From Acidobacteriaceae bacterium KBS 83 (GTDB taxonomy: Bacteria > Acidobacteriota > Terriglobia > Terriglobales > Acidobacteriaceae), in contig KB906737.1 in the NCBI GenBank assembly GCA_000381585.1, forward strand, positions 62,001 to 126,000: 64,000 nucleotides of DNA, in the 5' to 3' direction. Position numbers and translations under genes: made by a program. This document shows, one piece after another, positions 39 to 12,411 of this stretch. The notes under the pieces are model-generated. The model saw only the letters and a program-made list of their open reading frames with translations, ran no database searches and had not been told where the DNA came from. Position 1 is the stretch's first letter, and every line of letters begins with the position of its first letter.

Positions 39-1112
39 ATGATGGTGGCCGAAAGCAAACGCATCGCCGTTGTGGGCGGAGCGGGATATCTGGGAAGTAC
101 CCTATGCGCCCACCTCGTGGAACAGGGGTTCCACGTTACCAGTATCGACGCGCAATGGTTTGGCGACGACTCGATACGTCGACTTCGCTGTCATCCCGAA
201 TTCACAAGCAAGAAAGTGGATGTCCACCTCGCCAACGAGGTCCTGCCTTTGCTGCGTGGCTGCAATGCCGTTATCTGGGTTGCAGGCCTGGTGGGTGACC
301 CTGCTTGTGATCTCGATATGGAGTTCACGTACAGCTGCAATTATCACAGTGCCTTGACCCTGGCGCACATCTGTAAATGGTTGGGAATCGCTCGATATGT
401 GTTTGCGTCCAGCTGCAGCGTCTATGGTCGGTCGAGTGCGGATGCGACGCATTTGACCGAAACATCACCAACCTGTCCGCTCTCCTGCTATGCGCAGGAC
501 AAGCTGGCGTCTGAAAGAGCCCTACGAGGCATGGCGGACGACTTCTTTCATCCCACCATCCTACGTCTGTCAACGCTCTTTGGGTGGTCAAATCGCATGC
601 GCTTTGATCTCGTGGTGAATGTGCTGACGGCCAGAGGTTGCAAAGGGGAGATTCTGGAAATATGCGGTGGAGGGCAGCGGCGACCGTTTCTGCACGTGAG
701 AGATGCCGCGGCGGCATTTGAGGCCGTTGTATCGAGTGATCTTTCGCTCGTGTCGAATGCGGTATTCAACGTCGGCGCAGATGCAAACAATCACCGGATC
801 ATAGACGTAGCTGATCTTGTCTATTCGGCGCTCCCTTCCGCCCGATTGAAGTTCACATCAGAGGCGAAGGATCAGCGAGACTATGACGTGGATTTCTCAA
901 AGATAGCGCGCCTGCTTGGGTTCAAAGCGAACTTCTCAGTTGCAGACGGGATTGCGGAGATGTGCCAGAAGATGACGGAAGCGAATGGCATCAATATCAA
1001 CGATCCGCTCTACAGCAATGTGAAGAGAACACAGCAACTGTTAAGCGAAACATGGCACAACGGCTTCCGACCGCCTTCGATGGTATTGGGCACAGCCGGC
1101 ACTGCGGCCTAA
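39..1112 (+). CDS. NAD-dependent sugar-nucleotide epimerase/dehydratase
   Basis: Predicted cytoplasmic enzyme of the extended short-chain dehydrogenase family (357 aa) that would epimerise or dehydrate a nucleotide sugar for surface polysaccharide synthesis. The N-terminal NAD-binding motif GGAGYLGS is at residues 13-20. The catalytic Tyr/Lys pair reads YAQDK at about 151-155, and the preceding SSCSVYG strand supplies the usual Ser/Thr. AAAAGGAG sits just upstream of two adjacent ATGs (39 and 42), so either may be the start. The next gene, a secreted beta-helix protein, begins 24 bp after the stop, so the two may be co-transcribed. Substrate cannot be told from the sequence; family assignment is firm. 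Confidence 0.9.
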   Translation: MMVAESKRIAVVGGAGYLGSTLCAHLVEQGFHVTSIDAQWFGDDSIRRLRCHPEFTSKKVDVHLANEVLPLLRGCNAVIWVAGLVGDPACDLDMEFTYSCNYHSALTLAHICKWLGIARYVFASSCSVYGRSSADATHLTETSPTCPLSCYAQDKLASERALRGMADDFFHPTILRLSTLFGWSNRMRFDLVVNVLTARGCKGEILEICGGGQRRPFLHVRDAAAAFEAVVSSDLSLVSNAVFNVGADANNHRIIDVADLVYSALPSARLKFTSEAKDQRDYDVDFSKIARLLGFKANFSVADGIAEMCQKMTEANGININDPLYSNVKRTQQLLSETWHNGFRPPSMVLGTAGTAA

Positions 1113-1135: not shown

Positions 1136-2575
1136 ATGATCACGACAGCCCAATCGATCAATTGGCTTCTGCTTACTGCATCCTTCGCGGGATGCTTCCT
1201 GTTGCCCGGCGGAGGTCCTGGACACACTTTGACCGAGCCATCGCAGACATCCGCGGCTGCGCGTGCAACATACTATGTGAGCACGAACGGCAGCGACGCT
1301 GCTGACGGAAGCACGGCCCACCCCTGGGCGACTCTCCGCCATGCTGACGAGGTTGTCGGCCCAGGCGATACGGTCCTTGTCGCTGACGGTGTCTATCGGG
1401 GCGACATCGTCTTGAGAAAGAGCGGCACGAAGGGCCATCCCATTACATTTGCCGCCGAGCATAAATGGAAGGCGAAGCTGGTTGGGACCTCATCCGGCGA
1501 CGGTTCGGCAGTTATACGAGTGACCGGTGGCAGAATTGTTATCAAGGACTTCGATATCAGCGGCAAGAACGCGAATGGGATCATTCTGGCATATGCGGGT
1601 ACTTCAGCCAGCTACAACCAGGCTATCGGAAACTATGTACACGATATGAAAACACCGTGTACTGATAATAGCGGAACTGCAATTGAGACCGGCGGCGGGG
1701 ATAATTATCGCGGCATTTCCCACAACGACATCATCGGGAATCTTGTAGTGAATATCACGCCGATTGACGGCTGCCCGGAGGGGCATCCTTCGAGTGGAGT
1801 ATACGCAGAAATTCCGTACTCCACTATCGCAAATAACATCGTCATCAATGCCGGTTACGGCATCCAAAGCTGGCACGCCGCTTCGCATGTGACCGTTGTC
1901 GGAAACACCCTGATTAACAATCGTCGGTCCATCACAATTGGGGACGGCGACTCTCCCGGCGGTCGGGTGAATGATTACAGTCTTGTGCAGAACAACTTGA
2001 TCTACAACAGCGAGCAAACAGCCATCGCCGAGACCGGCAAGACTGGGCCTCACAATAGATACTTGAATAACTTGATCTATGGAGGCGACACGAGCATTAG
2101 TTTGAATCACAGTTTGCGTGCGAGTGGAACCGTTTATGCAAACCCCCGATTTATCCACAACACCGGAACTGCATTTGGAAATTATCGGCTGAGCTTTGAC
2201 TCCGGAGCCCGAGCGGCCGGACTGGCTCTGGGGGCAGTCGGCACAGACTTCGCAGGGACGCCCCGTCCTCACATCGGGGCAACAGATGTGGGCGCCTGTC
2301 TTTTTCAGCCAAGCTCTGCACCGCCCTGTCCTGAACCTCAGATGCTTAAGGTTGCCGCCGGCGCCAGCGCTGTTCCCAACCTGATTAAAAGGGGGCAGTC
2401 TTCCACCATCACCTGGACCACCGAGGATGCGGCAGCCGCTACGCTTAATGGGGAGCCTGTCCCATTAAAGGGCACCCGGAAGGTACATCCTACGGTCACT
2501 ACGACCTATAAAGTTATAGCAACCTCTCCAGCAGGTCAGACGGATTGGGGCGCTGCGACGGTCGTTGTTCATTGA
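1136..2575 (+). CDS. Secreted right-handed parallel beta-helix protein with one C-terminal Ig-like module
   Basis: 479 aa exported protein. A hydrophobic N-terminus (residues ~8-25) precedes a DUF1565-type start (TYYVSTNGSDAADG), a long run of beta-helix coils rich in Asn/Ile/Val (NNIVINAGYGI, QNNLIYNS) and one Ig-like module (RGQSSTITW, then TTTYKV, then TDWGAATVVV). Beta-helix proteins of this type are often polysaccharide lyases or hydrolases, but no catalytic residues can be assigned here. The reading frame is open back to 962; ATG 1136 is chosen because the signal segment begins there, although no good Shine-Dalgarno precedes it. It is a clear paralogue of the convergent gene at 2766-4697 (shared SYNQAIGNYVHD, WKAKLVG and VNDYSLVQNN). 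Confidence 0.85.
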   Translation: MITTAQSINWLLLTASFAGCFLLPGGGPGHTLTEPSQTSAAARATYYVSTNGSDAADGSTAHPWATLRHADEVVGPGDTVLVADGVYRGDIVLRKSGTKGHPITFAAEHKWKAKLVGTSSGDGSAVIRVTGGRIVIKDFDISGKNANGIILAYAGTSASYNQAIGNYVHDMKTPCTDNSGTAIETGGGDNYRGISHNDIIGNLVVNITPIDGCPEGHPSSGVYAEIPYSTIANNIVINAGYGIQSWHAASHVTVVGNTLINNRRSITIGDGDSPGGRVNDYSLVQNNLIYNSEQTAIAETGKTGPHNRYLNNLIYGGDTSISLNHSLRASGTVYANPRFIHNTGTAFGNYRLSFDSGARAAGLALGAVGTDFAGTPRPHIGATDVGACLFQPSSAPPCPEPQMLKVAAGASAVPNLIKRGQSSTITWTTEDAAAATLNGEPVPLKGTRKVHPTVTTTYKVIATSPAGQTDWGAATVVVH

Positions 2576-2723
2576 ACTCCTAATGCAGCGTGACTTCAAG
2601 CTACGTCAGTCGCACTTTGAACAGGTCAGAAAATACATCTATCAAAACAAAAAAAGGACGCAAAGTCGACGCAGCGTGAATGTCACGTTCCGCGGCGGCC
2701 TTTGCGCCCTGAGACCCAAACAA

Positions 2724-2762
2724 GGTTGGGGATTTGCCAGATGTTGGTCTCATCCCCCAACC
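2724..2762. terminator. Inverted repeat between convergent beta-helix genes, possible bidirectional terminator
   Basis: GGTTGGGG at 2724-2731 pairs exactly with CCCCAACC at 2755-2762 across a 23-nt loop. It lies between the stop codons of two convergent genes. There is no strong T-run on either side, so termination is an inference from position. Confidence 0.45.
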
Positions 2763-2765
2763 AAA

Positions 2766-4697
2766 TTACTTAACAGTGACGGTTGCTGAACCCCAGTCAG
2801 TCTTACCGGTCGAGTCCGTCGCAACGATCTTGTAGACCGTCGTTGCGGTTGGCCGCACTGTAACTGATCCGTTGAGGGCAACCGGCGCGCCATTCAGAGT
2901 TGCGCTTACGGCATTCGCCGTGTGCCAGGTGATCACAGACGTTTGACCGTTCGCGATGGAGGTTGGGCTAGCGCTTGCTCCCGCCGCAACGGGGCCGCTG
3001 GTAGCAGCTGCAGCCACAGTCACGGTTACAGAGCCCCAATCCACGCTACCGTTCGAGCCGGTGCCAACTACTTTGTACTGAGTCGTCGCTGTTGGCTGCA
3101 CGGTCATCGATCCGTTCAGTGCGACAGGCTTTCCATTCAAAGTCGCGCTGACAGCATTCCTGGTGTCCCACGTGATCACCGAACTCTGGCCACTCTTGAT
3201 GGAGGTTGGGCTGGCCATCACGCCGGCGGCTACTGTACCGCCCGTCGGGGTGCCAACTGCAACCGTGACTGACTGCGACGTGCTGTTGCCGGTAGAGTTG
3301 GCGACAGCTATCGTGTAAGTCGTCGTCGCAGTGGGATTTACTGTCATGCTGCCGTTGAGTGCAACGGTCGCTCCATTCAGCTTTGCGCTTACTCCATTAC
3401 TGCTTGTCCACGAGATGACCGACGATTGACCACTGGTAACGGAAGTTGGGCTAGCCGAGATGGTTGCTGTGGCTGCACCGGAAGAACCGGAACCCGAACC
3501 AGATGTCGGGGACACACCAAGAGCTGCACCTATTACTGTCATGCCCGCCTGTGGACGCGACACTCCATCAAAGTCCGTCATCACACCAGCAAGTGCGAGG
3601 CCGGTGCCGCGCGCAGGAGAAGTCATCGCTACGCGGTAGTTGCCTGAAGCATTTCCGGTGTTGTTGACGAACTGCGGGTCTGCCTTGATCGTCCCGGTGG
3701 CTTGCAGACCGTTATTCAGGCCGATGGTCGTATTACCGCCATAGACCAGGTTGTTCTTGTATTGGTTGTGGGGACCTGTGCTTCCGGTCTCTACGATCGC
3801 CGACATGCTGGAGTTATAGACGATGTTGTTCTGCACCAGCGAGTAGTCGTTCACCGTGCCTGTATTCGGCCCATCACCTGCGCCCATTGTAATGGACTGC
3901 TTGGAGTTCACGATGACATTGCCGAAGTAGGTCTCGTGATGAGCGTTGTGCCACGACTCAATCGCCCAGTGTCCGCCATTCACGATGATGTTGTTCGCCA
4001 CCATTGTGTAAGGAATTGCCGCGAAGATACCGGCGCCATGCGGAGCACTACAGCCGGGAGGATCCGTGACATTGACCACCAGGTTGCTCAGGATGTCCAT
4101 GTGGCCAACGCCGGGATTGTAGTTGTCGCCATCGCCGGAATTGATGGCGGTTCCCCCGTTGCCATCGCACGGAGCAACAAGGTCATGGACATAGTTGCCG
4201 ATGGCCTGGTTGTAGCTGGTGGTAGTTCCAGACCTGGCAAGGTCGATTCCGTTCGCATTGCTCCCGGTGACGTCGAAATCCTGAATGGTGTTATAGCTTC
4301 CGGAGACCCCGATCACGGTCGAGCCGTCGCCGGTGCCGCCGCCGACCAGTTTGGCCTTCCACTTATTCATGGCCTTGTAGGTGATCCGTTGGCCGGCTGC
4401 GCCGTTGGAGCTGATGGCAGCGTCTCCGAGCCAGCCGCCGTTGCCGAGAGAGTAGGTACCGTCTTCCACCAGGATCGTGTCGCCAGGCTTCGCCTGACGG
4501 GACGCATAGGTGATGGTTGCGAACGCGTTGCTGTCGCTCAGTCCGTTGTTGAAGTTGTTGCCGTTGGTGGCGACATAGTACGTCGTGCCGGTTTGAGCCT
4601 CGGACCTCTGTGCGGTGAACGAAAATGCGCATGTAAGCGCGATGCTGACACTGAGACCAGTCCTTAGAAGCGGCGGACATGTAAGCCGTGAAGACAT
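2766..4697 (-). CDS. Secreted right-handed parallel beta-helix protein with three C-terminal Ig-like modules
   Basis: 643 aa exported protein. A signal peptide (hydrophobic ~12-30, cleavage near SEAQ-TG) is followed by TTYYVATNGNN, a beta-helix body to about residue 385, a Gly/Ser linker and three Ig-like modules (roughly 400-480, 485-560, 570-643). Each module carries the signature GQ(S/T)SVI(S/T)W, LNG, ALNGS, PTATT; the last two end in (V/T)DWGS. The body is paralogous to the convergent gene at 1136-2575 along its length. The ATG at 4697 is preceded on its strand by AAAAAAGGATTT, giving an AAGGA ribosome site. A role in binding or cleaving extracellular polysaccharide is inferred from fold and neighbours (epimerase, heparinase-type lyase); no active site is recognisable. 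Confidence 0.87.
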   Translation of the reverse strand: MSSRLTCPPLLRTGLSVSIALTCAFSFTAQRSEAQTGTTYYVATNGNNFNNGLSDSNAFATITYASRQAKPGDTILVEDGTYSLGNGGWLGDAAISSNGAAGQRITYKAMNKWKAKLVGGGTGDGSTVIGVSGSYNTIQDFDVTGSNANGIDLARSGTTTSYNQAIGNYVHDLVAPCDGNGGTAINSGDGDNYNPGVGHMDILSNLVVNVTDPPGCSAPHGAGIFAAIPYTMVANNIIVNGGHWAIESWHNAHHETYFGNVIVNSKQSITMGAGDGPNTGTVNDYSLVQNNIVYNSSMSAIVETGSTGPHNQYKNNLVYGGNTTIGLNNGLQATGTIKADPQFVNNTGNASGNYRVAMTSPARGTGLALAGVMTDFDGVSRPQAGMTVIGAALGVSPTSGSGSGSSGAATATISASPTSVTSGQSSVISWTSSNGVSAKLNGATVALNGSMTVNPTATTTYTIAVANSTGNSTSQSVTVAVGTPTGGTVAAGVMASPTSIKSGQSSVITWDTRNAVSATLNGKPVALNGSMTVQPTATTQYKVVGTGSNGSVDWGSVTVTVAAAATSGPVAAGASASPTSIANGQTSVITWHTANAVSATLNGAPVALNGSVTVRPTATTVYKIVATDSTGKTDWGSATVTVK

Positions 4698-4754
4698 AGG
4701 TTAAATCCTTTTTTAGACATAAGTTGGCTGACCCCTGCACGTGGGCAAGGGAGC

Positions 4755-4839
4755 CCGGCAGCAACGCCGGAGTCGGAAAAAGAGCGAGCCCTGCCTGTCC
4801 TGCAAAAAAGCAGGCGACATTACGCCGGCGATCCGGCGT
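4755..4839 (-). promoter_or_regulatory. Structured leader upstream of the three-Ig beta-helix gene
   Basis: Three perfect short hairpins lie in a row 58-142 nt upstream of the ATG at 4697. They are ACGCCGG/CCGGCGT with a 4-nt loop (4822-4839), CCTGC/GCAGG with a six-T loop on the minus strand (4799-4814), and CCGGC/GCCGG (4755-4770). This looks like a folded 5' untranslated region. It does not match a riboswitch class that could be recognised by eye. Confidence 0.35.
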
Positions 4840-5741
4840 GGAGAGCTAACTGTGGATGTGGAGAGTGCGTGCCGTTCGGATAGTCAACGGCTTACACGAT
4901 TCAAGATGGGCCGGAGCGGCAATGATTTAAGTCAGCCTTGCTCCAGGAGTCGAGCAGAGTATTTTTTTGGGAAGACATGTGGGGGAGTCCTCGATAAGAG
5001 ATTTTTTTTTAACCCGGTACATATGCGGATCTGAAAAGCTACAGCGCTCGAAAGCTCTGAAGCAAGCGAAGGTGTCCGCGATTCCGCGGAAACCCAGAAG
5101 ACGTTGCTTTGGCAGCAGGTCGATCAGTCGCACGGATGTGCGAGCCCGTCAGCATCGAAAGAGATGCTGGAAAAGAATGCTTCTCACCGCTTGAATTAGA
5201 GATAGCCAGCGTGCAACTCAACCTGACTAAGCTTCCGATTCAGCCGCTTCTATGATCTGCTCACCTTAGAACCAAACGTTGAAGACGGCGATGACCCTTT
5301 GGTGTTATGCCAACTTGTCTTACCCACCATGTCCAACGCGATCCGTGAAACATCGCAAGATAAGCGATTGTTCAGGCGGTGAACAGACGTTTTTTGTGTT
5401 AACGCATGTTCGCGAGTCTAACACACAGATCAACGGAAATTGGGGCTGTGCGATCGTGTTGTCAGCGATTTATGACGCCAATCGAGAGACTCTTCACCAT
5501 TCTTTGCAGCGAAAAAATTACCTGAAATACGGCTTCATCCGCTCGACGTTGTCGAAGAGAGAGTCCGCCTCCCTCTGGCCTGTTTCTTGCCACAGTAACT
5601 CGTCTGTGTCATTCCTACAGTGCCCGCGTGTCGAACGCGCCGGATCATAAGAACCTATTTGATAAATCTCTCAATCGCCGACCGGCTTTTCCTCTACTCC
5701 GTGAGTTGGAACGGCTGCACCCCCTGCACGAAGGCGCGAAG
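4840..5741. other. Long intergenic stretch without recognisable genes
   Basis: About 0.9 kb between divergent genes, lower in GC than its surroundings, with homopolymer runs (TTTTTTT near 4962, nine T near 5002). Open frames here (for example 5279-5650) have unconvincing composition and no recognisable family. An imperfectly spaced inverted repeat, TGTGTTA (5395-5401) and TAACACA (5419-5425), is visible. It probably holds promoters for both flanking genes, but no clear -35/-10 pair could be assigned. Confidence 0.4.
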
Positions 5742-7778
5742 ATGAACGACTGGACCCCGGTTGGGGCCAAAGCACCCTGCACCCGGAAGGTGATCATCGA
5801 GGACGAGATGCACGAAACTGCAATGACGAGCAATCAGTATCTGTTCCCTGCTGTTTCTCCTGTCGCGGAGACTACAGCGCTCCCGTCCTTTGCAGCTCCT
5901 GCAGCGCCTTCTACCACAGGCAGATACTGGAGAACGCTACGACATTTGCGTCTATCTCAGCTTTTATATCTAGGATTGCACCGCACGCTGGGTACGAATG
6001 ACATTCGACGCTGGCCCGAGGTTTCAGTTGGCATAAAAACTCATGGCGGTTTGCGGCACATGGCGGACTGGCAACCTGAGTTAGCCCGCGAGGTCATCCT
6101 GGCTGGCAACGTACAGTTTGTAGATCCTCTCCCGGCGGACGATGATGATGTGCCGTGGTCTCTGAAAGAGGTAAGGCGCCGCCAGGTCTTCCACGCCAAC
6201 TATTGCGACTTCCTGAATATTGATCTCACTTCACCTCGCGACGAGGATCTCCTTCGCCGGGCCATAGGCATCGCGTTGAGCTGGTGCGATCAGAACCCTA
6301 CCGGTCGCGAAGTCGCCTGGCAGCCTTTCTTCCTGTCTCTACGCATCGTGAATTGGCTAAAGTTTCTAGCGCGCAACTATCTTCGAGCGCAGGAGATTGG
6401 CGATAGAGCACAAATGGATCGAATGCTCTCCAACCTTCGGGTGCAGGTGCTCTCGCTCGAAAGCCGGCTGGAGCGTGAACTGTTGGCAAATCACTTCCTG
6501 AAAAATGCGAAGGCTCTTGTCTTTGCCGGGTCCCTGCTTGAAGCACCGGAAAGCTCCAGGTGGCTCATTCTGGGACAGCAAATCCTAAAACAGCAGGTTA
6601 GGGAACAAATACTGCCGGATGGAGGCCACATCGAGAGGTCGCCTATGTATCACGCATGGGTACTCGATGATCTGATCGATATTCAGCAATTATTTAACGT
6701 GTGCGCGCCTGACGACCCCGAATGCCGCCTTGCCGTCAGTGACGGTGTTGCTCGCATGAGCCAATACCTGAGCGAGATTCTTCATCCCGATGGTGAGATC
6801 CCGCTGCTGAACGATTCCCAACTGAATGTGACACGGCCGACCGGCGAAATCCTTGCCGACGCCGGGGCCGTGCCTAACACTACTTCGCGAAGTGGAATTG
6901 AGACGCATATCCTTCCGGAAACTGGCTACGGGACCATTCGAAACTACGACTCGAGAAGTTTCCTGATCCTCGACTGCGGACCGCTGGGTCCCGATTATCA
7001 GCCCGGCCACGGACACTCAGATGTCCTCACTTACGAACTCACCCTGCATGGACAAAGAGTCGTTGTGGATACCGGAGTCAGTTCCTACGAGCCAGGACCG
7101 GAGCGCCAGTATGAGCGCTCAACGGCCGCTCATAACACGATACGCATCGACGAAGCAGACCAGGCCGAAGTCTGGGCCAGCTTCCGGGTTGGGATTCGCC
7201 CAACCGTCGGCCGCATTGCAGAAGGATCGATCGCGAGCGGCCATTTCGTTCGGGGGCAACATTTCAAGTACAGACACTCCAGCGTGGATCACTCAAGAGC
7301 AATCGGGCATTTCGCTGGGAGTTTCTGGATAATCGCCGACCTGCTGCAAGGCAAAGGAAGACATAAAGCAGAGTCGTTTATTCACTTCCATCCATCCGTT
7401 CAGCTCATGCCTCATCCTGGCTCGCACGATTTTCCCTCCGAATCCATGGCGCCCCAATGGAAGCTTCAGTTTGGAGAAAACAGGTACGTTCTCATGGCGA
7501 GAGGAGGCGGCATGCTCAAATTGACCTCTGCATGGTATTCACCCGGTTTCGCCATTCGACTGCCGCAATCGGTGATTCATTGGACCCACGATGGAATGTT
7601 GCCGATCTCAATGGTCTATGCGATCGTCCCCGAAGACACATCGCCGGCGAGCGTGAATCAGGTGGCAGATCATTTGTGCACCCAACTCAGCGAAAACATA
7701 TCGGCACAGCGGCGGCCTGCGAAGGCGGTTTCCGATCTTCGACCTCTGTCCGGAAATGCACCTAACTCGATTTCCTGA
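5742..7778 (+). CDS. Heparinase II/III family protein (polysaccharide lyase type)
   Basis: 678 aa from ATG 5742. An N-terminal alpha-helical toroid (starting near LRHLRLSQLLYLGLHR) is followed by the heparinase II/III beta-sandwich with the family motifs GHGHSDVLTYEL and RSTAAHNTIRIDEADQAE. The His and Asp of the first and the Arg/His of the second are in the positions expected of uronate-containing polysaccharide lyases. The frame is open back to GTG 5628; ATG 5742 has GAAGG upstream, and ATG 5808 has GAGG at a good spacing and is an equally plausible start. No classical signal peptide is seen from any of these starts, so localisation is uncertain. Neighbouring beta-helix and epimerase genes suggest turnover of an exopolysaccharide; the substrate is not known. 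Confidence 0.88.
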   Translation: MNDWTPVGAKAPCTRKVIIEDEMHETAMTSNQYLFPAVSPVAETTALPSFAAPAAPSTTGRYWRTLRHLRLSQLLYLGLHRTLGTNDIRRWPEVSVGIKTHGGLRHMADWQPELAREVILAGNVQFVDPLPADDDDVPWSLKEVRRRQVFHANYCDFLNIDLTSPRDEDLLRRAIGIALSWCDQNPTGREVAWQPFFLSLRIVNWLKFLARNYLRAQEIGDRAQMDRMLSNLRVQVLSLESRLERELLANHFLKNAKALVFAGSLLEAPESSRWLILGQQILKQQVREQILPDGGHIERSPMYHAWVLDDLIDIQQLFNVCAPDDPECRLAVSDGVARMSQYLSEILHPDGEIPLLNDSQLNVTRPTGEILADAGAVPNTTSRSGIETHILPETGYGTIRNYDSRSFLILDCGPLGPDYQPGHGHSDVLTYELTLHGQRVVVDTGVSSYEPGPERQYERSTAAHNTIRIDEADQAEVWASFRVGIRPTVGRIAEGSIASGHFVRGQHFKYRHSSVDHSRAIGHFAGSFWIIADLLQGKGRHKAESFIHFHPSVQLMPHPGSHDFPSESMAPQWKLQFGENRYVLMARGGGMLKLTSAWYSPGFAIRLPQSVIHWTHDGMLPISMVYAIVPEDTSPASVNQVADHLCTQLSENISAQRRPAKAVSDLRPLSGNAPNSIS

Positions 7779-7934
7779 AAGATCGTGATTGCGTTTTACC
7801 TTGCGCGGCCTCTCTCCTTCCCGCAGTTGTCAATCGATAGCGCACACTCCCCAAGCTAGTCTCCCCTGCATAACAAAACCTTCAGTGTCGTGGATGGCTC
7901 TCCTAATACTGGGCATCTCGGCGGAGATACGGTC

Positions 7935-10900
7935 ATGGTCCCTCAGGTAATTTCCTCGCCTAGGTCTTTCTTGCATGGTCTTCTCACCGGTCAGACAGTT
8001 GCATTCCGCCGGCACTCCCGAATTGTTTCGGTTTTGTGCCTGCTGATCGTCGCGGCACTATCCTCTGCTTTCGCGGTTGCGCAGTCTCCAAGGGCAGGAA
8101 TATCAGGCAATCCGACGACAATTGCAGCCGGCGGCAGCTCTACACTCACCTGGTCCACGGCCAATGCCGTGAGCGCGGACCTGAACGGGACCAATGTTGC
8201 CCTGAATGGATCGCAGGTAGTCTCTCCCACGACAACCACCACGTACCGCATCACCGCGCACGCCGCGAACGGGACCACGGACTGGGGTCAGGTCACCATC
8301 ACGGTCACATCCGGCGGCGGCCCCACCGCATCCATCACCGCCAATCCCACCACCATCACGTCCGGCGGCAGTTCTACACTTACCTGGTCCTCTACAAATG
8401 CAACTAGCGCCACTCTCAATGGAGCCTCGGTTGCGGTCAATGGATCAAAAGTAGTCTCTCCTACCGCGACCACCACCTATACCTTCATCGCAAAGAGCTC
8501 TTCCGGTGCCACTGCCACTTCCACTGCTACCGTCACCGTCGGTTCCGGCGGAAACCCCACAGCCGGGATAGTGGGCAATCCGACAGCGATCACAGCCGGC
8601 GGAAGTTCGACGCTCACCTGGACCACTACCAATGCTGTCAGCGCAGACCTGAACGGGACCAATGTCGCGTTGAATGGATCGCAGGTTGTCTCCCCCACCG
8701 CAACTACCACCTACCGCATCACTGCGCACGCCGCGAACGGCACAACCGACTGGGGCCAAGTCACCATCACGGTCACTCCCGGCAGCGGCCCCACTGCCTC
8801 CATCACCGCAAATCCACTGACGATCGCGCCAGGCGGCAGTTCGACCCTTACCTGGTCTTCCACCAATGCCACCAGCGCGACCCTCAATGGAGCCTCGGTT
8901 GCGGTAAATGGATCACAGGTAGTCTCTCCCACCGCGACCACCACCTATACCTTCATCGCAAAGAGTTCTTCCGGTGCCACCGCGACTTCCACCGTTACGG
9001 TGACCGTCAACTCCGGTGGCAACCCCACTGCGGGCATAGTGGGCAATCCCACAACGATTGCAGCCGGCGGCAGCTCTACGCTCACCTGGATCACTTCGAA
9101 TGCGGTCAGCGCTGATCTGAACGGGACCAACGTCGCCTTGAATGGATCGCAGGTTGTCTCCCCCACCGCAACTACCACCTACCGCATTACTGCACACGCT
9201 GCGAACGGAACCACCGACTGGGGCCAGGTCACCATCACTGTCACACCCGGCGGCGGCGGCCCCACCGCATCCATCACCGCCAATCCAACGACGATCGCAG
9301 CCGGCGGCAGTTCTACTCTTACCTGGTCCTCTACCAATGCTACGAGCGCCACCTTGAATGGGGATTCGGTGCCCGTCAATGGATCAGAGTCAGTCTCTCC
9401 CACCGCGACCACCACCTATACCTTCATCGCAAAGAGCTCTTCCGGTGCCACCGCGACCTCCACCGTTACCGTCACAATCGGTTCAGGTGGAAACCCCACA
9501 GCTTCGATCAATGCGAACCCCACCACGATTGCGCCCGGCGGCAGTTCTACCCTTACCTGGTCCTCAACCAATGCAACCAGCGCCTTGCTGAACGGGAGCT
9601 CGGTCCCTGTCAATGGATCACAAGTAGTCTCCCCGGCCGCAACCACCACCTACACCATCCTCGTAACGAGCGCATCGGGAGCTACCGCAAGCTCCACCGC
9701 TACGGTCGTTGTCAACACTGGCGGGGGGCCTACTGCCTCCATCAACGCAGATCCCATCACCATCACATCCGGCGGCACGTCTACGCTTACTTGGTCGTCT
9801 ACGGGTGCGACCAGCGCCACACTGAATGGAGCCTCGGTCGCCGTCAATGGATCACAGGTAGTCTCCCCCACGGCAACCACTACCTATACGTTCATCGCAA
9901 AGAGCTCCTCGGGAGCTACCGCCACCTCGAGCGCAACCGTCACGGTCAACTCAGGTGGAAATCCGATGGGCCAGTGGACACCGGTTCAGAACTGGCCATT
10001 CATGGCGGCTCACGCACATCTGCTCCCGAATGGAAAGGTACTCTTCTCGCCTTCCTTCCTCATCGGGAACAACCCCGCGTTGTGGGATCCGATAGCGAAC
10101 AGCTTCAGTTCATCGCCACTGGCACCGTTTAACATCTTCTGCGCCGGCCATTCTTTCCTTGCGGACGGAACGCTGCTCATTGCAGGCGGTCACAATGGAA
10201 GCTCCGGATACGGATTACCGTATGCGACCATCTACGACCCCACACAGGATTCGTGGACACAGATTCCGAACATGCAAGACGCCCGGTGGTATCCAACAAA
10301 TACAACGCTGCCGAACGGCGATGTTCTGGTGGTGTCCGGAGAAATTACACCCGGCACAAATAGCACGCTGCCGCAGATATGGGACCCACCCAGCAATAGC
10401 TGGGTCGACCTGACCTCCGCTCAACTCTTCCAGCCTCTCTACCCAATGATGTTCGTTGCGCCGAACGGGCAGGTGTTCAATGCGGGTCCTGATCAGACAA
10501 GCCGTTATCTGAATACAAGCGGAAGCGGCGCATGGACTACTGTCGGGACCTTCAACTACAACGGGACGAGGGACTATGGCTCCGCCGTTTACTACGATGG
10601 AAAGGTGTTGATTGCCGGCGGCGATGGCAGCACCAATACTGCTGCCACGAAGACGGCGGAGGTAATCGACCTGAATGCATCGAATCCGCAATGGACCAAC
10701 ACGGGTTCCCTCGCATTCGCCCGGCGCCAACTCAATCTAACGCTGCTCCCCGATGGAAAGGTGCTTGCAACGGGCGGCAGTGGAGGATTTGGATTCGACA
10801 ATGCATCCCTTCCGATCTTCCAGTCTGAGATGTGGGATCCCGCCACGGGCAACTGGACCACGATGGCAAGTATCTCGGTCTATCGCGGCTATCACTCCAC

Positions 10901-11297
10901 CGCACTCCTGCTGCCCGACGGCCGGGTCGTCTCCGCGGGCGGAGAGCAAACGGGGGCTAGCGCGGAGATATACTCCCCGCCCTATCTCTTCAACGGTCCC
11001 CGGCCTACGATCACGTCTGTTAGCTCCACCAGCGTGAAATTTGGCCAGACACTTAACGTAAGTACTCCGGACGCGGCAAGCATCAGCCAGATCACGTTTA
11101 TCCGGCTGGGATCGGTCACGCACGCCTTCAATCAAAACCAGCGTCTGGTCCATCTCCAATTCACTCAGGTCAGCGGAGGCCTGCAGGTAACCGCTCCAGC
11201 AAACGGGAAAGTCGCGCCTCCAGGGCATTACATGTTGTTCTTGGTCAACAGCAGCGGCGTTCCATCAGTGGCGAAGATCATTCAGGTCACGAACTAA
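7935..11297 (+). CDS. Galactose oxidase/GlxA-like copper-radical oxidase with eight N-terminal Ig-like modules
   Basis: 1120 aa secreted protein. The signal peptide (hydrophobic run ending AFAVAQS) is followed by eight tandem ~78-aa Ig-like modules (residues 52-676), a seven-bladed Kelch-type propeller and a C-terminal early-set (DUF1929) domain. The residues known from galactose/glyoxal oxidases are visible: Cys736 (NIFCAGHS), Tyr786 (ARWYPT), Tyr986-His987 (RGYHST) and His1063 (SVTHAF), the set that binds copper and forms the Tyr-Cys radical cofactor. It would oxidise primary alcohols or aldehydes, making H2O2. ATG 7935 is chosen over an upstream ATG at 7890 because GGAG precedes it and the signal peptide starts there. 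The modules resemble those in the neighbouring beta-helix proteins. Confidence 0.9.
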   Translation: MVPQVISSPRSFLHGLLTGQTVAFRRHSRIVSVLCLLIVAALSSAFAVAQSPRAGISGNPTTIAAGGSSTLTWSTANAVSADLNGTNVALNGSQVVSPTTTTTYRITAHAANGTTDWGQVTITVTSGGGPTASITANPTTITSGGSSTLTWSSTNATSATLNGASVAVNGSKVVSPTATTTYTFIAKSSSGATATSTATVTVGSGGNPTAGIVGNPTAITAGGSSTLTWTTTNAVSADLNGTNVALNGSQVVSPTATTTYRITAHAANGTTDWGQVTITVTPGSGPTASITANPLTIAPGGSSTLTWSSTNATSATLNGASVAVNGSQVVSPTATTTYTFIAKSSSGATATSTVTVTVNSGGNPTAGIVGNPTTIAAGGSSTLTWITSNAVSADLNGTNVALNGSQVVSPTATTTYRITAHAANGTTDWGQVTITVTPGGGGPTASITANPTTIAAGGSSTLTWSSTNATSATLNGDSVPVNGSESVSPTATTTYTFIAKSSSGATATSTVTVTIGSGGNPTASINANPTTIAPGGSSTLTWSSTNATSALLNGSSVPVNGSQVVSPAATTTYTILVTSASGATASSTATVVVNTGGGPTASINADPITITSGGTSTLTWSSTGATSATLNGASVAVNGSQVVSPTATTTYTFIAKSSSGATATSSATVTVNSGGNPMGQWTPVQNWPFMAAHAHLLPNGKVLFSPSFLIGNNPALWDPIANSFSSSPLAPFNIFCAGHSFLADGTLLIAGGHNGSSGYGLPYATIYDPTQDSWTQIPNMQDARWYPTNTTLPNGDVLVVSGEITPGTNSTLPQIWDPPSNSWVDLTSAQLFQPLYPMMFVAPNGQVFNAGPDQTSRYLNTSGSGAWTTVGTFNYNGTRDYGSAVYYDGKVLIAGGDGSTNTAATKTAEVIDLNASNPQWTNTGSLAFARRQLNLTLLPDGKVLATGGSGGFGFDNASLPIFQSEMWDPATGNWTTMASISVYRGYHSTALLLPDGRVVSAGGEQTGASAEIYSPPYLFNGPRPTITSVSSTSVKFGQTLNVSTPDAASISQITFIRLGSVTHAFNQNQRLVHLQFTQVSGGLQVTAPANGKVAPPGHYMLFLVNSSGVPSVAKIIQVTN
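8088..9962 (+). repeat. Eight tandem 234-bp repeats encoding Ig-like modules
   Basis: Eight in-frame copies of about 234 bp (one copy has one extra codon). Two subtypes are seen: A (AGI...RITAHAANGTTDWGQ) and B (ASI...FIAKSSSGATATS). The order is A-B-A-B-A-B-B-B, the seventh being diverged. All carry GG(S/T)STLTW, LNG and VNGS/ALNGS. The alternation points to duplication of a two-module (468 bp) unit. Confidence 0.93.
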
Positions 11298-11337
11298 AGC
11301 GAGCACGGAGATCGTGTTCAGAACAAGGGGAGAAACC

Positions 11338-12411
11338 ATGAAGAGCACGCTTCTGGCCCGCTTCACGGCGTGGTCATTCGCAACAGTTCTCGCTTCGGCT
11401 CCGATGGCTCGCGCCCAGTCGTCATATACGTTGATCGACATCGGCGCGCTGACCGGGGGAAATACCATCGTCAAGAAAATTAATCTGAACGGCGAAGTTG
11501 TCGGTAACTCGGGAAAAATTTATGGGGTCCATACGCGCGCTTTTATTCGCAGGGCATCCAGCCTGATAAACCTGGGAACATTGCCGGGGGGCGATTACAG
11601 TTCGGCCTCGGACATAAATCACAACACGACAGTGGTCGGTGATTCGAACACAAGTACCGGCATCCGCGCCTTCCAGTGGACACCCACCGGAGGAATGCAG
11701 GATCTGGGCACGCTTCCAGGAGATAAGGACAGCAGGGCCTTCGGCATCAACGACTCGGGACAGGTGGTTGGTTATTCCAGCGGCCCGCATGGTATTACTG
11801 CCTTCCTTTGGTCAAGCAGCACCGGCATGACCAGTCTCGGCACTCTCCCGGGAGGCCGCAACAGCGAGGCATTTGACTTGAACAACCCGGGCTCAGTGGT
11901 GGGAGTGTCAACCAACAGCTCCGGAGAAAAGCACGCCTTCCTATGGGCCTCTAGCTCGGGAATGCAGGATCTCGGAGTGCTGGGGGGCGACACCATGAGC
12001 GAAGCTCACAGGATCAACAACCAGGGGTCAGTCATCGGCTCCTCCACTGGACCTAACAGGACCCATGCCTTCCTTTGGACTGCTGGGACCGGCATGCAGG
12101 ATCTCGGCACTCTGGGAGGCGGCTTCAGCGATGCGTTGGACCAGAACAACAAGGGCGAAGTCGTTGGCACGTCAACGGCCGGCAACGGTGCCCGTGCGTT
12201 TCATTGGTCAAGCAGCACGGGGATGCAGGATCTCAATTCCCTGATACCGGCTAACTCTGGCGTGGTGCTAACGACCGCGATTGGCATCAATAATAACGGG
12301 CGCATCGTGGCAATCGGAGTAAAAACAACCGACCGCAGCGGCCCGGTGGATAGTGACGATACGCATTTGCACGCAGGTCCAACGCACGGTTTCATCCTGT
12401 TACCGCAGTAG
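11338..12411 (+). CDS. Secreted HAF-repeat protein
   Basis: 357 aa. The signal peptide (hydrophobic ~10-22, cleavage near ARA-QS) is followed by about seven degenerate ~45-aa repeats of the HAF type, with cores such as DLGTLPG, AFGINDSGQVVGYS and HAFLW. This is the repeat family named for the His-Ala-Phe motif; its role is unknown and it is usually extracellular. The start is at 11338 because AGGGGAG lies 5 nt upstream; an in-frame ATG at 11314 lacks a site. It begins 40 bp after the copper-radical oxidase stop with no terminator between, so the two are probably one transcript, ended by the hairpin at 12443. Confidence 0.88.
   Translation: MKSTLLARFTAWSFATVLASAPMARAQSSYTLIDIGALTGGNTIVKKINLNGEVVGNSGKIYGVHTRAFIRRASSLINLGTLPGGDYSSASDINHNTTVVGDSNTSTGIRAFQWTPTGGMQDLGTLPGDKDSRAFGINDSGQVVGYSSGPHGITAFLWSSSTGMTSLGTLPGGRNSEAFDLNNPGSVVGVSTNSSGEKHAFLWASSSGMQDLGVLGGDTMSEAHRINNQGSVIGSSTGPNRTHAFLWTAGTGMQDLGTLGGGFSDALDQNNKGEVVGTSTAGNGARAFHWSSSTGMQDLNSLIPANSGVVLTTAIGINNNGRIVAIGVKTTDRSGPVDSDDTHLHAGPTHGFILLPQ

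Follow-up and report, generated by a model that had tools for sequence, protein, structure and literature searches.

Ig-Like Modules Shared by a Copper Radical Oxidase and Two Beta-Helix Proteins at an Acidobacterial Polysaccharide Locus

Introduction

How does one small domain come to stand on proteins with unrelated catalytic parts that are encoded side by side, and does it point to a common task outside the cell? This question is raised by a locus of Acidobacteriaceae bacterium KBS 83 (GCA_000381585.1, contig KB906737.1). The window, by which we mean the whole analysed stretch of 64,000 nucleotides, corresponds to positions 62001-126000 of this contig (C5) in a genome of 6.25 Mb, and encodes near its beginning two beta-helix (BH) proteins, BH1 and BH2, and a copper radical oxidase (CRO), all of which carry copies of one immunoglobulin-like (Ig-like) module. 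An earlier note on this DNA had proposed that the module joins unrelated secreted proteins into a coordinated system around a polysaccharide. The observation of a shared module is confirmed here, while the interpretation as a whole is partly supported. Extracellular polysaccharide is produced by many acidobacteria, and only for a small part of it has the chemistry been characterised (PMC9693552). We consider it rather probable that the genes form a conserved secreted, matrix-modifying cassette at an Edaphobacter-type exopolysaccharide locus, and that the module spread between the scaffolds within this locus. This reading is carried by the modules, the clade that they form, the gene order, the copper-site motifs and the adjoining polysaccharide genes.

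One Module Family on Two Scaffolds

The three module-bearing proteins and their modules, as placed by module alignment (for the BH modules also by tree), are:

1136..2575, plus strand: BH1, right-handed beta-helix protein, probably secreted (judged by eye), one C-terminal module; start codon inferred from sequence
2345..2569, plus strand: BH1 module, A subtype (TDWG)
2766..4697, minus strand: BH2, right-handed beta-helix protein, probably secreted (judged by eye), three C-terminal modules
3255..3479, minus strand: BH2 module 1, B-like, without DWG
3015..3239, minus strand: BH2 module 2, A subtype
2772..2996, minus strand: BH2 module 3, A subtype
7890..11297, plus strand: CRO, copper radical oxidase, probably secreted (judged by eye), eight N-terminal modules arranged as ABABABBB
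8082..8306, plus strand: CRO module 1 (A)
8316..8540, plus strand: CRO module 2 (B)
8550..8774, plus strand: CRO module 3 (A)
8784..9008, plus strand: CRO module 4 (B)
9018..9242, plus strand: CRO module 5 (A)
9255..9479, plus strand: CRO module 6 (B)
9489..9713, plus strand: CRO module 7 (B)
9723..9947, plus strand: CRO module 8 (B)
9948..11294, plus strand: CRO catalytic part, kelch propeller and GO-like early set, cofactor and ligand motifs kept

The twelve modules of 75 residues, which span 2345-9947 (one on BH1, three on BH2 and eight on CRO), align without gaps and share 18 invariant columns. The common signature that had been claimed for both beta-helix proteins and the oxidase holds, and can be written as G[QG][ST]S..[TS]W together with LNG and P.....Y, the latter two present in 12/12 modules, with DWG in 6/12. 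The presence of DWG near the module end defines the A subtype (CRO 1, 3 and 5, BH2 2 and 3, and BH1), whereas the B subtype lacks it (CRO 2, 4, 6, 7 and 8, and BH2 1). Identity is 44-57% between BH and CRO modules and 39-59% between those of BH1 and BH2, compared with 88-95% within CRO A, 75-92% within CRO B and 75% for the BH2 A pair. A profile of the twelve rows scores its own rows with 103-125 bits and modules from cassette-type proteins in two further genomes, which were outside the profile build, with 84.7-121.1 bits, indicating a likeness beyond chance. At fourfold-degenerate sites BH and CRO modules are largely scrambled, being identical at no more than 11 of 26, so that the sharing of the module is old and no recent copy is involved.

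The earlier note had spoken of three different secreted proteins. The module is indeed on all three; the catalytic parts of BH1 and BH2, however, are 52% identical, so that these two are paralogues and the module stands on two scaffold families, not three.

A pair of modules is predicted to fold as an Ig-like beta sandwich, with a predicted local distance difference test (pLDDT) score of 95. The fold matches of this model are moderate and common to many Ig-like and PKD-like domains, with Z up to 8.7, for domains of GhpA, and Z 8.0 for a collagenase PKD domain. RbmA, a matrix protein of tandem beta-sandwich domains, has structures low in the Foldseek list of the module. By sequence, no Pfam family reaches its cut-off over the module regions of the three whole proteins (Ig_ADGRF3 with 16.9 and 23.3 vs 27 bits), nor does any NCBIfam name in the same proteins, while single modules have weak Pfam matches, led by Ig_ADGRF3 (E 0.0021), K319L-like_PKD (0.0037) and He_PIG (0.0054); against the PDB only chance-level matches were obtained (best E 0.032). 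That adhesin stalk domains, such as those of GhpA, are among the fold matches favours an explanation in which the modules are passive stalks, where any stable Ig-like bead would serve and the nearest copy would be reused without a shared ligand.

Conservation of the Cassette

A search for relatives of the BH proteins gave 78 loci, two of which have the arrangement of the window. They belong to Edaphobacter aggregans DSM 19364 (L187) and to a metagenome-assembled genome, Edaphobacter sp. RYN_3 (L188), the nearest named relatives of the cassette being from Edaphobacter; both genomes come from a collection other than the family, class and phylum samples used below. The remaining 76 loci, read in frames of 120 residues or more, show no module. 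Oriented to the window, the gene order in all three genomes is BH1 (forward), BH2 (reverse), a heparinase II/III-like protein termed Hep (forward) and CRO (forward), with polysaccharide-synthesis genes adjoining; RYN_3 has HAF-like frames between BH1 and BH2. Identity to the window in the two cassettes is 70-74% for CRO, 57% and 60% for Hep, 53-78% for BH2 and 61% for BH1. The number of modules varies (window/E. aggregans/RYN_3), with 8/5/7 on CRO, 3/2/1 on BH2 and 1/0/1 on BH1. When the two Edaphobacter genomes were searched with the profile, 9 and 20 matches were obtained, those above 80 bits lying only in cassette proteins or in a second CRO of RYN_3. This second CRO, on another contig (L294:1578-5198), carries nine modules in the order ABBABBBAB and has a HAF-repeat neighbour of its own. 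The BH1 of E. aggregans (L187:7638-8657) breaks off within the catalytic part with no module seen behind it, and is perhaps a decayed copy.

In trees of the catalytic parts, the six cassette BH proteins form one clade, with a Shimodaira-Hasegawa-like approximate likelihood ratio test (SH-aLRT) value of 100, as do the four cassette-type CROs (SH-aLRT 98). Relatives of either scaffold outside the cassette were found without the module, namely in 0/17 non-own BH matches and in 0/22 non-window CRO matches scanned (of 45), although in both sets several frames were cut by contig or fetch ends. Six CRO relatives run against Pfam have CarboxypepD_reg, Big_7, fn3, SdrD_B and similar domains, and the second CRO of the window's genome (C10:149686-153672) has SdrD_B, CarboxypepD_reg and Big_7 domains in place of the module. 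Since the module branch, absent from the other protein families sampled, is found on two adjoining unrelated scaffolds in three genomes, with relatives elsewhere lacking it, the simplest explanation is an exchange in an ancestral locus.

In the family, class and phylum samples the cassette is rare. A BH pair at 1e-60 was seen in 1/398 family genomes, the window's own. Modules above 103 bits were seen in 1/398 family, 1/299 class and 1/237 phylum genomes, again always the window's own; for this count the three samples have genomes in common, and the scoring covered some of the first-look candidates of each genome. Among the class genomes, relatives of BH at 1e-30 are present in 11/299 and relatives of CRO at 1e-40 in 30/299, the window's own included in both; a widespread pairing of CRO and BH was looked for and not found. 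No paper describing this cassette was found in a literature search that left most subscription journals outside.

Catalytic Parts of the Oxidase and the Beta-Helix Proteins

The modules of CRO start directly after a signal-peptide-like stretch and are followed by a catalytic part that matches GO-like_E_set (1.7e-26), Glyoxal_oxid_N (4.5e-14) and kelch families of Pfam, and in a PDB sequence search galactose oxidases lead the list (1.5e-56). The motifs FC.GHS, RWYPT, GYHS and VTH are kept in 4/4 cassette-type CROs, and their residues in the window's CRO align with the equivalent residues of a solved galactose oxidase; we take them to form the Cys-Tyr cofactor and the Tyr/His/His copper ligands. 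CRO is thus, as judged from sequence, a copper radical oxidase with the galactose oxidase fold of auxiliary activity family 5 (AA5). An assignment as a GlxA equivalog (NF052501) was rejected, as CRO reaches 254.3 bits with a cut-off of 800, and the protein is termed GlxA-like only. AA5 oxidases of bacteria and plants include members beyond the two original fungal subfamilies, as described in PMC11267884.

For BH1, Pfam gives weak matches to Pel9A-like and Chondroitinase B families. The AlphaFold2 model of BH2 (mean pLDDT 76) retrieves, with VIA-align, structures of polysaccharide lyase family 9 (PL9) first, namely 5olr, a rhamnogalacturonan lyase (Z 30.1 over 309 residues), and 1ru4 (Z 29.0 over 306 residues), followed by BT_1002, mannuronan epimerases and PL6 lyases, and further down by Vibrio RbmB (Z 23.6). 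A right-handed parallel beta-helix of PL9 type is therefore what the model gives for BH2 and, by the 52% identity, what is predicted for BH1. By sequence, BH2 alone has no match in the PDB at E 0.1, while a six-row BH profile has PL9 and PL6 matches that are confined to the N-terminal part, the alignment ending before the active site. PL9 lyases such as Pel9A use a catalytic Lys together with a set of calcium-binding Asp residues. In contrast to these lyases, with which the BH2 model shares the fold, the BH match stops before the catalytic region, where there is no invariant Lys: in the six cassette BH sequences the only invariant Lys residues are at 112 and 116, and no Arg is invariant. A protein of Oxalobacteraceae, and thus of another phylum, has two BH-type beta-helix domains in tandem (L189:8648-11032).

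A Private Branch of a Phylum-Wide Family

Other proteins of the same genome had been expected to carry similar modules, and they do, although these are more distant. At E 0.01 the profile finds 32 copies in the window's genome, comprising the 12 of the cassette, 1 in Pal and 10 + 8 + 1 in three phosphoesterase-type proteins. Two of the latter (C3:31812-35657 and C5:423656-427990) carry tandem arrays of 8 and 10 modules, which are of a longer subtype; the Pfam Phosphoesterase family matches two of the three (those on C3 and C2), and the one on C5 is named by likeness. In Pal (C7:109080-109955) one module stands ahead of the OmpA domain (Pfam), and TolB, TolQ- and TolR-type genes adjoin. A module match at 1e-10 was obtained in 37/41 genomes (the window's own and 40 relatives), and one Pal module of the 40 relatives reached 103.3 bits. 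Among the best 29 loci from relatives, 26 frames have an OmpA-type text pattern, one (L073) is alike by eye and 2 are other proteins; the pattern is loose, having also marked two 783-residue non-Pal proteins (L172, L186), while the Pal frame of one relative (L046) has an OmpA domain by Pfam. By profile, the module of acidobacterial Pal is of the same family as that of the cassette, but is present in single copy, lacks DWG in those sampled and is attached to another host protein. Papers on Ig-like modules in the Pal or in secreted proteins of acidobacteria were looked for and not found, with most subscription journals outside the search. The module relationships thus indicate a parent family that is phylum-wide, of which the cassette modules are a distinct branch.

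This branch was recovered in two trees, from which overlapping second fetches (L052, L061, L160, L161, L165-L168, L185), identical copies and matches of less than about 60 profile positions were left out. In a tree of 131 modules, computed under a mixture model, all cassette modules (37) fall into one clade (99/82), inside which the A modules (19) are a clade of their own (98/98), in line with the prediction that the beta-helix modules group with the A subtype. A 120-module tree (LG+G4) likewise has the 28 cassette modules in one clade (96/82) and the BH A modules in one (100/96), and the sister of the cassette clade is a set of nine Pal modules that belong to a neighbouring family. Since DWG is what defines the A subtype, the tree was repeated without five motif columns, and in this quick search the cassette clade has an SH-aLRT value of 92 and the A clade of 75, neither starred. 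The motifs are private to the cassette, with DWG in 19/37 cassette vs 0/94 other modules and ADLNG in 12/37 vs 0/94; DWG is also found in 0/8 further modules of three additional genomes. By identity, 7/7 BH A modules are nearest to CRO A (51-71%) compared with any of the 94 others (44-59%), and the single BH B module is 64% identical to CRO B and 58% to others.

Several points weigh against a spread of the module within the locus and a common task of its carriers. The module family is generic, occurring in Pal, phosphoesterases and other proteins, and the non-cassette modules of the trees were retrieved by the profile of the twelve window modules, which is a source of bias. The grouping of BH A with CRO A has only 82/55 in the 120-module tree, and in approximately unbiased (AU) tests on this tree a single clade of all CRO modules (p 0.368) and one of all BH modules (p 0.344) were both retained. 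This tree alone is therefore compatible with the A grouping as well as with competing groupings, and with more than one number and direction of transfers. An alignment of 75 columns resolves little, and the bootstrap of the 131-module tree had not settled. The cassette is found in three genomes only, in one of which, E. aggregans, BH1 is without module, and from the pattern of Lys and Arg a lyase chemistry of the PL9 kind appears doubtful for the BH proteins. Finally, the earlier note had set against its own proposal a situation in which the modules of each protein are closest to those of unrelated genomes. While the cassette modules do group together, the five CRO B modules of the window have a higher identity to modules in a protein from another genus (L169, 61-66%) than to BH modules (51-53%), which leaves the A subtype as the main basis of the local tie.

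The CRO B identities also speak for a second explanation, according to which the scaffolds obtained their modules in separate events from a genome-wide pool and the likeness merely reflects a common family, as do the 20 further copies elsewhere in the genome and the survival of a single CRO clade in the AU test. We nevertheless regard independent recruitment as very improbable, since the cassette modules of three genomes stand in one clade apart from the Pal and phosphoesterase modules of the same genome, and every BH A module is nearer to CRO A than to any module from elsewhere. The passive-stalk explanation fares better: the same family is used ahead of OmpA in Pal and in long tandem arrays in two phosphoesterase-type proteins, and the copy number varies from 5 to 9 among the four CROs. 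However, a pure stalk would have no need of DWG, which like ADLNG is confined to cassette modules and of which at least one copy is present in each of the nine module-bearing cassette-type proteins. We see passive stalks as a serious possibility that falls somewhat short of being probable. For the modules a role as tether or spacer is the safe reading, and the private DWG of the A subtype makes a binding role a candidate. The common ligand or anchor suggested in the earlier note is likewise a candidate only, with a generic spacer as its alternative given how widely Pal and phosphoesterases use this module family.

The Polysaccharide Locus

The cassette adjoins and is interspersed with the following genes:

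39..1112, plus strand: NAD-dependent epimerase/dehydratase, the last sugar-nucleotide gene before the cassette (Pfam Epimerase 7e-34), 64% identical to its RYN_3 counterpart at the equivalent place
5628..7778, plus strand: Hep, heparinase II/III-like protein without modules, start uncertain (Pfam Hepar_II_III_C 4e-44)
11314..12411, plus strand: HAF-repeat protein directly after CRO (TIGR02913)

Hep sits between BH2 and CRO, and counterparts of the HAF-repeat protein, 60% and 64% identical to that of the window, follow both RYN_3 CROs. Directly upstream on the same contig are genes for a Wzz/BY-kinase-like protein, two DegT aminotransferases, a Gfo/Idh protein with hexapeptide repeats, a glycosyltransferase and an AsnB-type amidotransferase, as well as metallo-beta-lactamase-fold proteins, two of which were tested and one of which has a Rieske domain. 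The latter (C5:55216-56955) is 62% identical in RYN_3; its make-up is reminiscent of CMP-Neu5Ac hydroxylase and hints at a hydroxylated sugar. Wzx and Wzy are our own labels for hydrophobic-looking sequences, neither of which matched NCBIfam; the Wzy-like one is also without a Pfam match. It is 55-70% identical to its counterparts in the two Edaphobacter cassettes; in RYN_3 the epimerase is 64% identical, but AsnB only 37% and Wzx 46%, and in E. aggregans a WecB-type gene takes the place of the epimerase. The polysaccharide setting that had been suspected is thus borne out, the gene set being conserved and placed beside polysaccharide-synthesis genes.

The same setting bears on a third explanation, in which the proteins degrade a foreign, pectin-like polysaccharide of plants or fungi instead of finishing the cell's own polymer. 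Acidobacteria degrade plant polymers, and the nearest folds of BH2 are the PL9 rhamnogalacturonan and pectate lyases. However, the genes end a polysaccharide-synthesis cluster, synthesis genes adjoin in all three genomes, and no transporter or glycoside hydrolase match was obtained among the 17 proteins scanned on the stretch (7 + 10). Degradation of a foreign polymer appears improbable to us, and the presence of a shared module next to polysaccharide genes supports a common extracellular task.

A Model for the Cassette and Its Relation to Known Systems

In the reading that we favour, a matrix-modifying cassette with module exchange in the locus, an ancestral Ig-like module of the phylum-wide family would have been amplified on one scaffold, most simply CRO. 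The DWG-bearing A subtype would then have passed within the locus to the ancestor of the other scaffold, after which the copy number may have changed freely. CRO and the two lyase- or epimerase-like beta-helix proteins, if secreted as predicted, would act on the polymer made by the upstream genes, with CRO oxidising primary alcohols of the polymer to aldehydes able to cross-link. The modules may serve as extended tethers that keep the catalytic parts in the matrix, and the DWG stretch of the A type could be a contact site.

Two known systems resemble this arrangement. In Streptomyces, cslA-glxA-cslZ encodes GlxA together with a polysaccharide synthase and a hydrolase, and loss of GlxA abolishes polymer deposition, according to PMC9040799 and PMC11022532. 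The likeness lies in a GlxA-like copper radical oxidase (254 bits to the GlxA model for CRO) beside polysaccharide synthesis and a polysaccharide-cleaving enzyme. In contrast, the window has what we label a Wzx/Wzy-type cluster and beta-helix proteins where Streptomyces has a GH6 glucanase, and its CRO has tandem Ig-like modules where the Streptomyces enzyme has a membrane helix. Vibrio cholerae encodes the beta-helix lyase RbmB in its own biofilm matrix cluster (PMC11637428), together with the matrix protein RbmA. Both loci thus have a beta-helix protein in a matrix setting, and the RbmB structure is among the matches of the BH2 model. In Vibrio, however, the matrix protein is distinct from the lyase, and the passages of that source considered here do not mention a copper oxidase, whereas the window fuses one module to oxidase and beta-helix protein alike.

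A bolder version, which we hold to be unlikely although conceivable, would make the A-type module a new carbohydrate-binding Ig-like domain for the polymer of the locus, bringing the oxidase and the beta-helix lyases or epimerases onto one chain, with oxidation coupled to cutting or epimerisation, and the whole a Gram-negative, Wzx/Wzy-type counterpart of CslA-GlxA that builds an aldehyde-cross-linked matrix.

The locus is a good case of probable module spread between unrelated scaffolds within one locus. The cassette also offers a small, testable gene set for how the matrix of acidobacteria might be finished and, if the favoured reading is true, would mean that the tie of copper radical oxidases to polysaccharide deposition, seen in Streptomyces, also holds among Gram-negative bacteria.

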